This document shows positions 4,063 to 29,836 of a DNA stretch of 29,836 bases, in pieces. Source of the stretch: a virus. The notes under the pieces were generated by a model that saw only the letters and a list, made by a program, of their open reading frames with translations, was not told the origin of the DNA and ran no database searches. Both the position numbers and the translations under genes were made by a program. The DNA lies in the IMG/VR virus record IMGVR_UViG_3300042924_001744, positions 1 through 29,836 of that record. The stretch is one strand, 5' to 3'. Each line of letters opens with the position of its first letter. The stretch's first letter is position 1.

Positions 4063-4701
4063 ATGCAAACAAGTTTATTTAGCCTAAATACAATACAAAA
4101 AGATTTTTTTTCAATCGGGGATGTTCGTGATTTTAAAGTATTACAATGCAGTCGAAAAGAAATAGTAGATTTTATTGAGTTTTGGCACTATTCAAAAAAT
4201 GTTAATGGTCTTACCACAGATTTTTGTTTTAAATTAATCGATGCAGATGGTAATATGATTGGAGCAATGATTTATGGAAAAATAGCAATGGCTAACGTAT
4301 GGAAAAAATATGCGTCTAATGAATTTGAATTGATTGAATTAAAACGATTATGTTGTATAGATAACACCCCAAAAAACACAGAAAGTTTTTTCATTGGTAA
4401 TACTTTGAGGTGGTTGAAAAAAAACACAAAAATAAAAACAGTCATAAGTTATGCGGACACTACTTATTCGCACGAAGGAACAATCTACAAAGCAAGTAAT
4501 TTCAAACATTTAGGTATGACAGCAAAAGGAAAAGTAATAATGTACAATGGTAAAAGATATCACGATAAAACAATAAGGACAAAATATAAAGGAGAATTGA
4601 AACCTTTTGCGATTGAAATAAAAAATGCACTTGAAGTTGGAAAAGCAAATTATGTAGATACACTCGGAAAACACATTTATTTATACAAGTTACAAAGTTA
4701 A
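4063..4701 (+). CDS. Mom-like DNA adenine-modification protein
   Basis: 212 residues. Seen: residues 129-151 read SYADTTYSHEGTIYKASNF then KHLG, the 'AD..-H-G-TIY-ASNF-G' signature of the Mom family, and an N-terminal half (FCFKLIDADGNMIGAMIYG) that looks like a GNAT-type beta core. Mu Mom converts adenine in phage DNA to N6-carbamoylmethyladenine and so blocks host restriction; the same role is inferred here. The gene is markedly AT-richer than its neighbours (GAT, AAT and AAA codons dominate) and stands alone between a terminator and the next promoter, as a moron would. It has no clear promoter of its own, so read-through or a weak AT-rich start site must serve it. Confidence 0.7.
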   Translation: MQTSLFSLNTIQKDFFSIGDVRDFKVLQCSRKEIVDFIEFWHYSKNVNGLTTDFCFKLIDADGNMIGAMIYGKIAMANVWKKYASNEFELIELKRLCCIDNTPKNTESFFIGNTLRWLKKNTKIKTVISYADTTYSHEGTIYKASNFKHLGMTAKGKVIMYNGKRYHDKTIRTKYKGELKPFAIEIKNALEVGKANYVDTLGKHIYLYKLQS

Positions 4702-12372: not shown

Positions 12373-12843
12373 ATGGCACTACCCGGACAATACAACATTA
12401 AATACAAAACACGCGTTCACCTTCAACGTGCAATTCAACAAGAAATACAGCGTCAAGGCTTGGTACAACTTGGTACAATGAAAGACTCAATTCGTATTTC
12501 TGCGGGTAGTGGTGACGTGAATAATTTGTATGTAGAAATTAGTGCAATCTATTACTATATGTTCTTGGACAAGGGCGCGGAACTAACTAACGGCGGTGTT
12601 ATACGTCCGCATTACATTACTCAAAACGCTATGGCTTCGGCTAATGGTCAAAGGTTTATTAGTGGTGCTATTGATGAGTATTTGGCTTTCATGATTAAGA
12701 CTTACCCTTTCTTAAATGCTGACACGGTAGGCATGACACCCGACAATGTAAAGGTTAACATTACTTATAACTTGTTCGGTGCTGACGGCGGTAAGTGGAA
12801 CGGCTTATTTGAGTACGATAAAATGTGGAAGGTTTGGGGTTAA
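12373..12843 (+). CDS. Putative small structural protein (gp10-like)
   Basis: 156 residues: basic N-terminal helix RVHLQRAIQQEIQRQGLVQL, then MKDSIRISAG, EISAIYYYMFLDKGAELTNG, IRPHYITQNAM and a C-terminal IDEYLAFMIKTYPFL. The order 'helix - short strands - YY.Y.L..G..' resembles HK97 gp10-like tail-completion proteins, but the match is loose. It has its own promoter-like motif at 12340. Its stop codon overlaps the stop of the converging leftward gene within TTAA at 12840-12843, so there is no room for a terminator between them. Confidence 0.5.
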   Translation: MALPGQYNIKYKTRVHLQRAIQQEIQRQGLVQLGTMKDSIRISAGSGDVNNLYVEISAIYYYMFLDKGAELTNGGVIRPHYITQNAMASANGQRFISGAIDEYLAFMIKTYPFLNADTVGMTPDNVKVNITYNLFGADGGKWNGLFEYDKMWKVWG

Positions 12844-13577
12844 GCCTTGTTGAGTTGTAGTTCTTCAACCATTGACAGCATATTAAACACAAAGACCAAA
12901 GGAAGGTCCGTAACTGCGTCTATTTTGGTAAGGTCTTCGTTGGCGATGTCGTAAAGTAATTTCTCCCACGACCATTTTGTAAACACCTTTTCTTCGGCTT
13001 CGGCTTTAAGGTCTTCGGGGTCAAGTTCGACTTCTTCGTCTTGTTCGATGACTGGGTTAAATAGATTTTCGTAGCGTTGCTTAAAGTCGTTTGAATAGTT
13101 AACGTAATTGTTTACCGCTCCAAAGACTTCGTTTATACTTACGTCTTGAAACGTATCTTTACGGCTCATTATACTATACACGTAAGGCTCAAAAACAAGG
13201 TTGCCCCATTCGTCACGCTTCCAACGTTTGTATAATATACTAAGCAAAAGGGTGAAATTTTGGACGTTTTGACTAATATAATATTCAAGGTCGATAAACT
13301 CCCCCAAGGTAAGCGCGTCCAACGGCTTCAACATAAAACCTTTTACGGCTTGTTTAGGCTTGTTAGACGGCTCACGCTTAATAAAAGATACTTCACTGGC
13401 AAGGTCAATGAGTTCTTCGGGGGTTAGGTCTTCCAACTCTTCGGGGTCTGTATCGCTGAGTATGGAAACCGCTTCCAACGTGTGTAAAAACACGCTGTTA
13501 AATTCGTTAGGGTCAATCGAATTAAGTTCGACCCATTGGTTAACCGTTACCTCGTTCCAGCTCTTCGGTAGTTTCAT
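12840..13577 (-). CDS. Tail-assembly-chaperone-like protein 2
   Basis: 245 residues from ATG at 13577 (a TTG at 13580 directly upstream is an alternative start). The N-terminus KLPKSWNEVTVNQWVELNSI resembles that of the partner gene (EIPNQLNELTVEQFDHLNKI), so the two proteins share an N-terminal domain. The rest is helical and acidic (EEVELDPEDLKAEAEEKVFT). A pair of small, acidic, overlapping genes of this kind is typical of tail-assembly chaperones, which coat the tape measure. That is the most likely role, although here they are inverted and far from the tape measure. It overlaps the partner's end by 38 bases in another frame. Confidence 0.5.
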   Translation of the reverse strand: MKLPKSWNEVTVNQWVELNSIDPNEFNSVFLHTLEAVSILSDTDPEELEDLTPEELIDLASEVSFIKREPSNKPKQAVKGFMLKPLDALTLGEFIDLEYYISQNVQNFTLLLSILYKRWKRDEWGNLVFEPYVYSIMSRKDTFQDVSINEVFGAVNNYVNYSNDFKQRYENLFNPVIEQDEEVELDPEDLKAEAEEKVFTKWSWEKLLYDIANEDLTKIDAVTDLPLVFVFNMLSMVEELQLNKA

Positions 13578-14097
13578 CAACTTTCTTTTCGGTTATCTTG
13601 GTTATCTTTTGTAGAATATCGAGAATGTACGGGAATGCAATTTCTGCTGTTTGTTTCTTGAACAAATTAGTCTTTAGTTTCAGGTGTGCAGGTGCGTAGT
13701 GTTCGGTTCGTGTAAGGTCCGTTCGTTTGAATAAAATTGCAAGTGTTTGAGCGGTAAAATTGTCGTCTTGACTGCGGTAAATTTTCTCAATAAGCCCCAA
13801 GTCTTTAACACCGATATTCTCGGAGGTCTCATAAGTGTATTTATCAATGACAATTTGCGTCACCTTTTCGGTACTTGGTAGGTCGGACTTGTTAAAGTCT
13901 TTAATGTAGTTAGCGAACTCGTCAAGTTCCATTGAATCGAAGGCTTTTTCTTCAACACCTAAGTAAATAAATTTCTCTATCCACTTTTCGATGGTGTCTA
14001 ACTCGATGTTGTTCTCAATTTTGTTGAGGTGGTCGAACTGCTCAACGGTTAACTCGTTTAGTTGGTTGGGTATTTCAGCCCCGTAAATTTGAATCAT
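13540..14097 (-). CDS. Tail-assembly-chaperone-like protein 1
   Basis: 185 residues, first gene of the only leftward operon, behind a host-type promoter at 14113-14147. The N-terminal 'N-E-L-T-V-E-Q-F' segment is shared with the second gene. The middle is acidic and helical, and the C-terminus (FPYILDILQKITKITEKK, then VDETTEELERGNG) is charged. No catalytic motif. Chaperone assignment rests on size, acidity, gene pairing and overlap. It ends within the start region of the second gene. Confidence 0.5.
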   Translation of the reverse strand: MIQIYGAEIPNQLNELTVEQFDHLNKIENNIELDTIEKWIEKFIYLGVEEKAFDSMELDEFANYIKDFNKSDLPSTEKVTQIVIDKYTYETSENIGVKDLGLIEKIYRSQDDNFTAQTLAILFKRTDLTRTEHYAPAHLKLKTNLFKKQTAEIAFPYILDILQKITKITEKKVDETTEELERGNG

Positions 14098-26517: not shown

Positions 26518-26768
26518 ACAACGACCTTAAACTCATTTCTTCCATCGCGATACTTCCAGTTTTAGCCGACTTTTTAGAAGACCTAAACGAAGACAAAGCG
26601 TTCAGAACCGAAATGAAGATGGCAACGCAGAACCTCATCAATCAAATCAGAAAGCTCGATGAGCGCGTAATGAAAAACGCATCACCTGAGACATCAGAAC
26701 AACAAGTAAACATACAAATAGCATTTAGACAATGGTTAAGAACGGCACAACATACGGACGAAAAATAA
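26514..26768 (+). CDS. Small protein, unknown function
   Basis: 84 residues with a hydrophobic start (LISSIAILPVLADFLEDLNE) then charged helices (QNLINQIRKLDERVMKNA, IAFRQWLRTAQHT). Its last 37 bases overlap the DnaA-like gene in another frame. It may be an accessory of replication by context only. Confidence 0.55.
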   Translation: MNNDLKLISSIAILPVLADFLEDLNEDKAFRTEMKMATQNLINQIRKLDERVMKNASPETSEQQVNIQIAFRQWLRTAQHTDEK

Positions 26769-27175
26769 AATATATTCTCAGCAAACTACCGAAGCGGTCA
26801 TTTTACACGATGCACGAGTTCTTTTTGGTTTGTCCTTACACTCACGAAGAGTTGAAGATAGCCAACCGTTCACGAGACCGAATGCAATGGCGACAGATTG
26901 GAATGGCTTGGGCAACATTAACCGGGTTGTCTTTAAGTGAATCAGGAAAGCTATTTAACAAGGACCACGCAACGGTGATTTATTCGCAGGAAATGATTGT
27001 ACTTGCGCTCGATGGTTATCACCCACTACTTGCGGAAAAGTTAAATGAAGTGCTGGAGTGCATCGAAATCACGAATGCTCACGCAAACGACTACAATACG
27101 GCTTTAATCATTTCAGCGAGACGTATTGAAAGCCTGTTGAAAACTCGCTATAAAAGAATCAACCAAATTAAATAG
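26732..27175 (+). CDS. Stand-alone DnaA domain IV-like replication protein
   Basis: 147 residues. Residues 45-90 (NRSRDRMQWRQIGMAWATL, then TGLSLSESGKLFNKDHATVI) match the DnaA C-terminal DNA-binding domain: the R..R...R..A.....LTGLSL basic loop and helix, and GK.F.KDHATV, the DnaA-signature analogue of 'GR.F.GRDHTTV'. No AAA+ domain is present. It would bind a DnaA-box-like origin site and recruit the replisome or block host DnaA. The N-terminal 30 residues may be an accessory helix; the start could also be the inner Met at residue 27. A helicase-like gene follows downstream. Confidence 0.7.
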   Translation: MVKNGTTYGRKIKYILSKLPKRSFYTMHEFFLVCPYTHEELKIANRSRDRMQWRQIGMAWATLTGLSLSESGKLFNKDHATVIYSQEMIVLALDGYHPLLAEKLNEVLECIEITNAHANDYNTALIISARRIESLLKTRYKRINQIK

Positions 27176-27312: not shown

Positions 27313-27624
27313 ATGAACGACAAATTAAAAGAAACGTTTGCCAATTACGAAAATTCGGCATTTTTTATTGACTGTTGTATTGAAGGCTTGTCAAGAGCAG
27401 GAGTACGCGATAAGCAGATTAAGTGGTTTATTAATAACCATTTTCAAACTCAAAGAAGTTGGGACTATGGAGCAGTTGTGCGTAATGTGGCACACTGGAA
27501 AAATGTCAGTTTTGACAAGTTAAATAATTACGACTTTCTAAATTACAAGCAAACTATTCACACGTTGAGCAACTATAGAATAGTAGCCAAAACAATGGAA
27601 CAATATCTAAACATTGAACTATGA
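27313..27624 (+). CDS. Replication-region protein, unknown function
   Basis: 103 residues from ATG 27313. A start at 27253 adds 20 residues encoded by the leader structure and is judged unlikely. Seen: KETFANYENSAFFIDCCIEG, LSRAGVRDKQIKWFINNHFQ, YGAVVRNVAHWKNVSFDK, a helical protein with two adjacent Cys. It overlaps the next gene by ATGA and lies downstream of the attenuator-like leader, so it and the following replication genes would be the regulated cargo. Confidence 0.65.
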   Translation: MNDKLKETFANYENSAFFIDCCIEGLSRAGVRDKQIKWFINNHFQTQRSWDYGAVVRNVAHWKNVSFDKLNNYDFLNYKQTIHTLSNYRIVAKTMEQYLNIEL

Positions 27625-28190
27625 GAAAGGCTTTTAATTTTTATCGAAGTTATTACGACGTTGCTAAGGAACTTTCAAAGAAAGACCGTGAAGAATTTTT
27701 AATGGCACTACTTCAAAAGCAATTTGAGGGTATTGAGCCTAAACTGGAAGGCATGGCTAAATTTGCTTACCTTTCACAACAACACTCAATAGACTCACAA
27801 GTAGTTGGTTATGAGCAGAAAACAAAAGAAAAACTAACCCCTACCGAAGGGGGTTGCCAAGGGGGTACTGTAGGGGGTACTAAAGGGGGTTCGGTACAAG
27901 AGGAAGAGAAAGAGGAAGAGAAAGGGAAAGTAGAATACTATCGTACTATTAAACACTTAAAATTAACGGAGGAAGAATTTACGTCGTTAAGTGCTGATTT
28001 TAGTAAACAACAAATTGACGATGTACTCGACCAAATTGAAAACTATAAAGACAATAAAAAATATGTATCGTTATATTTGACGGCTAAAAATTGGTTAAAA
28101 AAGGAGTCCAAAAAGCAAGACACGAAAGTAAGTACCGACCCGTTAGTAATAGAAATGGAACGTCAATTTAAAATGTATGGTCTTAAGTAA
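27621..28190 (+). CDS. DUF6291-like replication protein with Gly-rich linker
   Basis: 189 residues in two domains. Residues 1-75 (AFNFYRSYYDVAKELSKKDR, EFLMALLQKQFEGIEPKLEG, AYLSQQHSIDSQVVGYEQK) fit the DUF6291-like N-domain of phage replication proteins. Residues 76-92 are four xGGx units (GGCQ, GGTV, GGTK, GGSV), then an EEEKEEEK acidic run. Residues 105-185 form a DnaD/helicase-loader-like helical end (LKLTEEEFTSLSADFSKQQI, VSLYLTAKNWLKKESKK). Probably loads the helicase downstream. The linker codons form the G-quadruplex motif. It overlaps the ATPase gene by 14 bases. Confidence 0.65.
   Translation: MRKAFNFYRSYYDVAKELSKKDREEFLMALLQKQFEGIEPKLEGMAKFAYLSQQHSIDSQVVGYEQKTKEKLTPTEGGCQGGTVGGTKGGSVQEEEKEEEKGKVEYYRTIKHLKLTEEEFTSLSADFSKQQIDDVLDQIENYKDNKKYVSLYLTAKNWLKKESKKQDTKVSTDPLVIEMERQFKMYGLK
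27842..27896 (+). repeat. G-quadruplex motif closed by an inverted repeat
   Basis: Four GGGGG runs (27849-27853, 27861-27865, 27873-27877, 27885-27889) with loops of exactly 7 bases, flanked without gap by TACCGAA (27842-27848) and TTCGGTA (27890-27896), a perfect 7-bp inverted repeat. G-rich strand is the coding strand. It also encodes the xGGx linker. Confidence 0.8.
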
Positions 28191-29073
28191 AGGAAGCGCG
28201 AAAGAATATCTACACGACTACCGAGACGGGAAGATTGCGCAAGGACTCGGTATAAACTGCGACTTTGATGAGTCGTTAAGGTTTAAATACGGGCAATATG
28301 TAGGCATTTTAGGTGCTGACAACGTCGGTAAAACTTACTTCATGACTTGGTACATGTTAGCCCTAACAACTAACCACGGTTTAAAGTGGGGTATTTGGAT
28401 GGACGAAAACTCGAAAGGTCAAGTTTTAAGAGACTTAATACAAATGTACGCAGGTGTTCCATTTAAAAAGTTGACCCACGCAGAAATTGACGCACATAGC
28501 GACTACTTAGAAGACTATTTTTTCTTTGTGAACAATAAACTACAATACACCCCCGACAATTTGCTTAAACAATTTGAACAAATACCAGCGGATGGATATT
28601 TCATTGACCCATTTAACCAACTTGACCACGACATGAACTACGAGAACAACATTAAATTTATTCGTAGCTTAAAACGTTGGTGCAAAATCAACAAAAAGAC
28701 GGCTTATTTATCAATGCACCCCGTAACAGCATCAGGACGTAAAAGCATGGAGTACCCAATAGGGCATGAGTGGGAAGGTCAACCAATGGTACCGAACAAA
28801 TCAATGGCGGAAGGTGGTAAGTTATTCGCAAATATGTGCGACGACTGGGTAAATGTTCACCGACTCACTAAATTAGAATCAATGCAGTTCTTCACGCTTA
28901 TTGACATTGACAAAATTAAGGACAAAGACACGGGAGGGGCGCAAACGATGAGCAACAAACCGCTACAATTTTATTACAATCACGGCTTAGGGTTTCTTTT
29001 CAATGGAGTTGACCCAATTAAGCGACAAAAACAAGAACCAAAAATAGATTACACTAACGACTTACCTTTTTAA
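28177..29073 (+). CDS. RecA/DnaB-fold replicative ATPase (helicase-like)
   Basis: 298 residues. Seen: Walker A GADNVGKT (46-53), a second block WGIWMDENSKGQVLRDL, Walker B GYFIDPFNQLDH (Asp 144), LSMHPVTASGRK (sensor-like H, about 188) and a C-terminal segment VHRLTKLESMQFFTLIDIDK. This is the RepA/DnaB-like RecA core without a primase domain. It ends DYTNDLPF, which resembles SSB-type recruitment tips. It would unwind DNA ahead of the fork, loaded by the DUF6291-like protein just upstream. It could instead be a RAD51-like or single-ring ATPase. Confidence 0.75.
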   Translation: MVLSKGSAKEYLHDYRDGKIAQGLGINCDFDESLRFKYGQYVGILGADNVGKTYFMTWYMLALTTNHGLKWGIWMDENSKGQVLRDLIQMYAGVPFKKLTHAEIDAHSDYLEDYFFFVNNKLQYTPDNLLKQFEQIPADGYFIDPFNQLDHDMNYENNIKFIRSLKRWCKINKKTAYLSMHPVTASGRKSMEYPIGHEWEGQPMVPNKSMAEGGKLFANMCDDWVNVHRLTKLESMQFFTLIDIDKIKDKDTGGAQTMSNKPLQFYYNHGLGFLFNGVDPIKRQKQEPKIDYTNDLPF

Positions 29074-29074
29074 C

Positions 29075-29347
29075 ATGAAAGAACTCGACATTTTAACCGC
29101 ACAAATAAACCTGCGCACACTTGACCGAGCGTTGACGATGAGCATTGACGACTTGAAGGCGAAACACACGCACCGAGTTGACCTGATTAAGCCAATGGAA
29201 GAACGACAAATCGAACTCAAGGAAGCTATGTTAACCTTCTACCGAGTATGCGAAGACCACAAGCAAGTGATAAAAAAGGTTTATGCGTTGCATGAGGAGA
29301 ATTTGAGACTGAAGACTGAAAACACGGAACTAAAAAAGTTTATATGA
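29075..29347 (+). CDS. Small coiled-coil protein
   Basis: 90 residues: helix LDILTAQINLRTLDRALTMS, basic THRVDLIKPMEERQIELKEA, then LTFYRVCEDHKQVIKKVYAL and a Leu/Lys/Glu heptad end. Likely a dimeric coiled coil. It starts 1 base after the ATPase stop. Its stop overlaps the NinG start as ATGA. In the other haplotype its homologue ends at base 94 and is followed by the HNH gene. Confidence 0.65.
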   Translation: MKELDILTAQINLRTLDRALTMSIDDLKAKHTHRVDLIKPMEERQIELKEAMLTFYRVCEDHKQVIKKVYALHEENLRLKTENTELKKFI

Positions 29348-29836
29348 AGTCATGTAAAAAATGCGGTGAAACCTTTACACCATACCGAACCACGGACAAG
29401 CACTGTTTTGTCTGCGCAAAGACGGAACAAGCATTGAAAAACCTCGCTAAGATTAAAAAGGACAAGGTCAAAAAGCAAAAGGAAGACCTGCTAACCACGT
29501 CCGACTATCTTAAAATGGCGCAACAAGTGTTTAACAAGTGGGTAAGGTTACGCGACAAAGACAAAGGTTGCATTTCCTGCGGTGGAAAATTAGGCTCAAA
29601 ATACGATGCAGGTCATTTTTGGAGTGCTGGAAGTCACGCTTCTGTTAGGTTCCACCCTGACAACGTACACGCTCAATGTGTAGCTTGTAACCAACACAAA
29701 CACGGAAATTTGATACCATACCGCGAAGCCTTAATAAAGAAAATTGGCTTAGAAAAATACGCTGAAATCGAAAGTTTTGCCCACGACACGAAGAAATGGG
29801 ACAAGGAAGAGTTGAAAGACTTAATTACTAAGTATA
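29344..29836 (+). CDS. ninG: NinG/Rap-like protein, second haplotype, cut by window end
   Basis: The first 164 residues of a NinG protein; the frame runs off the window. It matches the copy at 492-1010 with about ten substitutions in the first 110 residues (for example I10T, F14Y, S15R, L17T, Y22F and K25A) and many silent ones, then is identical from base 29710. All zinc and HNH motifs (CKKCGE, CFVCAK, CISCGG, CVACNQHKHG) are kept, so both alleles look functional. Directly preceded by the coiled-coil gene with no HNH between. Confidence 0.88.
   Translation, partial: MKSCKKCGETFTPYRTTDKHCFVCAKTEQALKNLAKIKKDKVKKQKEDLLTTSDYLKMAQQVFNKWVRLRDKDKGCISCGGKLGSKYDAGHFWSAGSHASVRFHPDNVHAQCVACNQHKHGNLIPYREALIKKIGLEKYAEIESFAHDTKKWDKEELKDLITKY

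Follow-up and report, generated by a model that had tools for sequence, protein, structure and literature searches.

The locus considered here raises the question of why a gene of an uncultured virus should carry a strictly regular series of G runs inside its coding sequence, and what function, if any, the DNA itself has at this place. The window (the whole 29,836-nt stretch of IMG/VR record IMGVR_UViG_3300042924_001744) has a GC content of 40%, with 23 runs of at least five G or C per 29.8 kb. Positions 27842–27896 read TACCGAA-G5-TTGCCAA-G5-TACTGTA-G5-TACTAAA-G5-TTCGGTA, i.e. four G5 runs at a pitch of exactly 12 bp, framed by two heptamers (TACCGAA and TTCGGTA) which are perfect reverse complements and constitute a 7-bp flanking inverted repeat. 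An earlier note, made from the sequence alone, had described this motif (four G5-N7 units abutting a 7-bp inverted repeat) exactly, and it is far from chance: three G5 runs with gaps of 3–15 nt did not occur in 100 dinucleotide shuffles. The interval which the note gave is real but too short, as it missed a fifth unit, ACCCC-TACCGAA at 27837–27848, which is in the same 12-bp register with C replacing G. The putative iterons, all on the plus strand, are therefore (1) ACCCC-TACCGAA, in C orientation, at 27837–27848, (2) GGGGG-TTGCCAA at 27849–27860, (3) GGGGG-TACTGTA at 27861–27872, (4) GGGGG-TACTAAA at 27873–27884 and (5) GGGGG-TTCGGTA at 27885–27896, the TTCGGTACAAGAG junction of the last being seen again in many relatives. 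Their spacers match T-W-N3-W-A, and both arms of the stem claimed previously are two such spacers. Tandem 12-bp units of this type are found at 27837–27896 and nowhere else in the window. The array is in codon phase, each G5 being part of GGG GGT, and encodes EGGCQGGTVGGTKGGSVQ.

The gene containing the array (27621–28190, plus strand) codes for a 189 amino acid protein, proposed from Pfam, PHROG and AF2 data to be a replication initiator or replisome organizer. Its residues 5–70 match DUF6291 (PF19808; E 8.7e-9, 35.9 bits, above the curated cut-off of 27.2) and residues 94–170 match phrog_13246, 'replisome organizer' (E 1.4e-6). The AF2 model consists of two folded parts and a disordered linker (residues 76–103, pLDDT<50), and the array 27837–27896 sits between the two domains, at the start of the linker region. 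The N-terminal part (residues 1–76; 27621–27848, plus strand) is a four-helix domain, modelled alone with a mean pLDDT of 93.6 and a pTM of 0.82; it is the proposed iteron-binding domain, since iterons accompany it. The C-terminal domain (about residues 104–189; 27931–28187, plus strand), which has the phrog_13246 match and a bb-aaa unit in the AF2 model, is proposed to contact the helicase or its loader. A PDB fold search with the whole model and with the N-domain alone returned nothing at E<0.001, the highest VIA Z being about 4; its weak sigma-region-4 rows are not counted as evidence. No paper on DUF6291 was found in the library searched, and no close relative was found among cultured phages.

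As to the flanking genes, the helicase reported downstream stands: directly after the DUF6291 gene, a RecA-like/DnaB-like replicative helicase or primase-helicase ATPase is encoded at 28177–29073 (plus strand; phrog_18375, E 9.6e-19, with phrog_239 and phrog_19), and a homologue is present in 36 of 85 relative loci. What had been called a DnaA-domain gene, about 450 bp upstream, encodes a small protein with the DnaA C-terminal HTH only (26732–27175, plus strand; PF08299, E 1.3e-9) and is not consistently associated, being present in 11 of the 85 loci. DnaA boxes show no excess over chance in the window (4 matches versus 5 expected). Three other features of the window are recorded here. The last 493 bases (29344–29836) repeat positions 492–984 at 90% identity, both copies being ninG with different preceding genes; possibly the contig is an almost closed circle, joined via strain variants, or else it has two ninG copies. 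On the minus strand, at 12840–14097, two overlapping ORFs of 246 and 185 amino acids with similar-looking starts lie amid plus-strand structural genes. Finally, a Mom-like DNA modification protein (4063–4701; PF25680, E 1.9e-32) suggests that the phage DNA is hypermodified.

Relatives were collected by scans of viral contigs, one of which matched 277 contig stretches; they comprise 86 distinct linkers of the window's subfamily, which fall into 42 clusters when N-domains are grouped at 85% identity. A search of genome contigs, aimed at the host, led to one locus only, in a Lacinutrix MAG. The linker unit in these relatives is A-[GGGGG or NNCCC]-T-W-N3-W, 12 bp long, on a grid common to most groups. 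The five-base block is GGGGG, CCCCC, GACCC, GCCCC, CACCC or one of a few others, and in the protein these swaps change Gly-Gly into Pro-Pro, Asp-Pro, His-Pro or Ala-Pro. C- and G-blocks are usually mixed within a single array, typically in the order C-G-G-C or C-C-G-G-C, and the pitch is four codons in 251 of about 390 intervals. On this comparison, the conserved element is a 12-bp DNA grid, neither the glycine nor the G-run.

The strength of this conservation was gauged by synonymous recoding, which kept the proteins and drew on the codon usage seen in N- and C-domains of the same family. Across the 42 clusters, 125 A[GGGGG/NNCCC]TW sites were observed versus 7.7 expected. Single codons show the bias as well (these counts, like the site counts, are descriptive because the relatives are not fully independent): Gly-Gly pairs in the array are GGGGGT in 137 of 141 cases, while GGG makes up 32 of the 350 Gly codons of the flanking domains; Ser in the third codon, after the block, is TCG in 69 of 107 cases (27 of 657 in the flanking domains); and Val in the fourth and last codon is always GTA (117/117, versus 162/364 in the flanking domains). 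The bias changes even within one gene, Glu in the fourth codon of the array being GAA (69/71) and Glu in the purine tract that follows being mostly GAG (259/441). The clusters are more than 15% apart in protein, a distance at which silent sites should be largely randomised. The array is thus under very strong selection at the DNA level, beyond the needs of the protein, and the note was right in taking the feature for more than a by-product of coding. Synonymous variation in relatives, the comparison proposed in the earlier note, speaks for selection on DNA as expected there, except that what is kept is the 12-bp grid and not the G runs; relatives retaining Gly and losing the G runs, the outcome that the note set against its reading, were not what was seen, since relatives lose Gly and keep the DNA grid.

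The 12-bp units go with the N-domain and not with the C-domain. Where a C-domain of the window type is preceded by an N-domain of the window type, at least two sites are present in 14 of 14 genes and strict 12-bp tandems in 10 of 14, whereas with any other N-domain tandems are found in 0 of 41, near-identical loci being left unmerged in all three counts. C-domains of the window type are indeed also joined to unrelated N-domains and, conversely, one shared N-domain plus linker is followed by C-domains from about a dozen homology groups. One protein, L070 (encoded on the contig of L009), has a C-domain close to that of the window (71% best-segment identity) and a different, DnaD-like N-domain; its array consists of ACGAAACGCAG and variants at an 11-bp pitch. 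In 8 of 8 such genes the 11-bp signal exceeds synonymous recoding, and controls at 10, 13 and 14 bp are not significant there. Arrays at an 11-bp pitch in organizers with other N-domains come from IMG/VR contigs, one Staphylococcus phage and one Vibrio phage. A second DUF6291 subfamily has CGACCGCAT at a 10-bp pitch, clear in L178 and L183 and weak in L181. The 10- and 11-bp pitches are out of codon phase (11 is not a multiple of three) and therefore do not produce protein repeats.

On the 3' side, the array is followed by sequence that is predicted to open easily. An uninterrupted 33-nt purine tract, within the stretch coding for EEEKEEEKGK and on the proposed side of strand opening, occupies 27898–27930 on the plus strand; it begins two bases past the right arm and array end, and is the longest purine run of the window (the runner-up in 29.8 kb measures 19 nt). 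Among the 86 relatives, the longest purine run has a median of 29 nt and most commonly starts 14 nt past the start of the last iteron. Adjoining the tract, a candidate unwinding element at 27930–27969 (plus strand) has a stability, by nearest-neighbour energy, below that of 97% of all 40-mers in the window. The layout, with an easily opened tract 3' of the array, is that of an origin of the lambda ori type, the opening itself being predicted.

Three other explanations of the array were weighed. The first, a G-quadruplex held in a hairpin whose structure would signal priming, pausing or packaging, draws on the four G5 runs with 7-nt loops of the window, and a G-rich strand of this kind is able to fold in K+. 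Quadruplex potential on either strand is limited to 12 of the 42 clusters when loops may reach 12 nt, and to 8 when they may reach 7 nt, so that four G-runs on one strand are not conserved across relatives; usually within the same array, G5 is swapped for CCCCC, GACCC, CACCC or GCCCC, and therefore most relatives are left without an intrastrand quadruplex. The stem fares no better as a functional element: among 51 linkers having at least two G5 runs it is perfect in the window only, the four nearest relatives have 2–5 mismatches, and in hairpin folding as ordinary DNA neither strand beats its own shuffles (z +1.2 and +1.0). Quadruplex formation in vitro may be possible, yet it would not be what selection maintains, and we consider this explanation very improbable. 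Equally improbable is a fast-evolving low-complexity linker, devoid of any DNA-binding role, that arose through slippage at codon repeats or acts as a patch of homology where C-domains are exchanged. The disordered linker, the codon-phased repeats of the window and the dozen or so C-domain groups behind a shared N-domain and linker are what it would lead one to expect, but the synonymous bias far exceeds protein needs, slippage is not expected to yield G and C blocks plus differing spacers on one grid, and the arrays of other N-domain families run out of codon phase.

It is also unlikely, though less so than the preceding two, that the 12-bp sites are operators or other sites of a different protein (a host factor or the upstream DnaA-HTH protein) regulating the operon instead of starting replication. 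Tandem sites within a coding region can act in this manner, and a gene for a DNA-binding protein does lie upstream; this gene is, as stated above, present in a small minority of the loci, whereas the array tracks the DUF6291 N-domain, and the tract beside the array as well as the off-phase arrays of other organizers fit an origin. Most probably, the array represents five intragenic 12-bp iterons forming a replication origin inside the gene of its own initiator, bound by the DUF6291 domain. This is in line with the origin function that the earlier note held plausible, and DNA-level selection, the N-domain link and the lambda O-like layout make it the best reading. Four observations count against it. 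The N-domain gave no recognisable fold match in the PDB; the GC skew of the window is mostly positive throughout, with no inflection at the array; some distant members (L068, L100, L055 and L177) have few or no sites; and G blocks are GGGGG almost without exception, C blocks being NNCCC with two bases free, a difference for which merely flipping the strand does not account.

The initiator domain comes first, then the iterons and the opening tract, and after these the helicase-side domain and the helicase gene. This is the anatomy of the lambda O gene, and for this reason DUF6291 binding and a replication start at the array are proposed. What was observed here is the repeat, the way it is conserved as DNA and goes with the N-domain, the purine tract and the order of the genes; from these we infer how the protein would bind, the strands open, the helicase be loaded and the origin fire. 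The N-terminal domain of the DUF6291 protein (residues 1–76), a candidate for iteron binding through its association with the array, would bind the iterons, several copies assembling on the array; the assembly would strain the purine tract and AT-rich stretch (27898–27969) until they open; the C-terminal domain would recruit the helicase of the phage, the product of the next gene; and theta replication would begin at the array, as it does with lambda O at ori-lambda. The interdomain linker tolerates either Gly-Gly or X-Pro and can therefore double as origin DNA.

An origin inside an initiator gene is of a known kind. In lambda, too, the iterons occupy the central part of the initiator gene, O; they contain CCC and GGG triplets beside T and A and are followed by an A/G-rich tract and by a helicase-recruiting gene (lambda sequence; PMC7466680). 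The initiator family and the repeat grammar differ: lambda has four 18-bp inverted-repeat iterons at a pitch of 20–24 bp, the window 12-bp units of mixed orientation at an exact 4-codon pitch, and lambda O matches PF04492 only, whereas the window protein matches PF19808 and not PF04492 and shares neither Pfam nor PHROG hits with O. In SPP1 the origin oriL is embedded in the replisome organizer gene 38, and in staphylococcal 80alpha an origin has been proposed within the organizer gene ORF20 (PMC5499656); the placement is alike, but the helicase and loader arrangement differs from that of the window. The DnaD-like organizers (L070–L073, Staphylococcus phi879, Vibrio F89 g1) share the position of the array in the protein and the array-then-AT-rich order, and differ in N-domain, repeat sequence and 11-bp out-of-phase pitch. 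Such 11-bp off-codon-phase repeats, candidate intragenic origins, are located at L208:1140–1220 in Staphylococcus phage phi879 and at L209:1143–1180 in Vibrio phage F89 g1.

Proteins of Flavobacterium phage elemoA, Olleya Harreka_1 and Cellulophaga phi19:3 are homologous at their N-terminus to L049, a DUF6291 protein; they belong to another subfamily and their linkers lack G5 units. Cultured-phage homologues of the L049 subfamily bear the annotation 'replication protein' or hypothetical. Four flavobacterial phages were read; in two of them, phi19:3 and elemoA, the gene that follows encodes a DnaC-like protein and a primase-helicase, respectively. The linker of the DUF6291-type replication protein of elemoA contains a 20-bp off-phase repeat (TCGCATAGCGATAAAAA; L206:1132–1190). 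In phi19:3, perfect 12-bp repeats coding for TDTV (L205:1127–1200) occur in a DUF6291-type linker just before the C-domain, a position like that of the repetitive tract of the window.

A wider proposition, to which we assign slightly less than an even chance, is that odd linkers in phage replication proteins (GG/PP repeats, KEKE, NDNVNV, TVTDTV) are generally origins in coding DNA and not protein features: iterons with a pitch (10, 11 or 12 bp) and sequence specific to the N-domain, then a strand-opening tract, with N-domain and iterons forming a single module that is exchanged while the C-domain stays constant. An off-phase repeat is absent from L204 and L205, and the rule is therefore not universal. 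If it is true that such linkers are origins, it would become possible to locate replication origins in thousands of uncultured phages by reading their protein linkers. For the family of the window, a likely function is assigned to a Pfam domain of unknown function, DUF6291, and a likely replication origin is placed for a large clade of uncultured phages. One stretch would carry two codes: in the protein, a linker that switches from glycine to proline and back; in the DNA, a preserved grid on which a protein may land. The link between initiator domain and DNA site also becomes testable by domain swaps.
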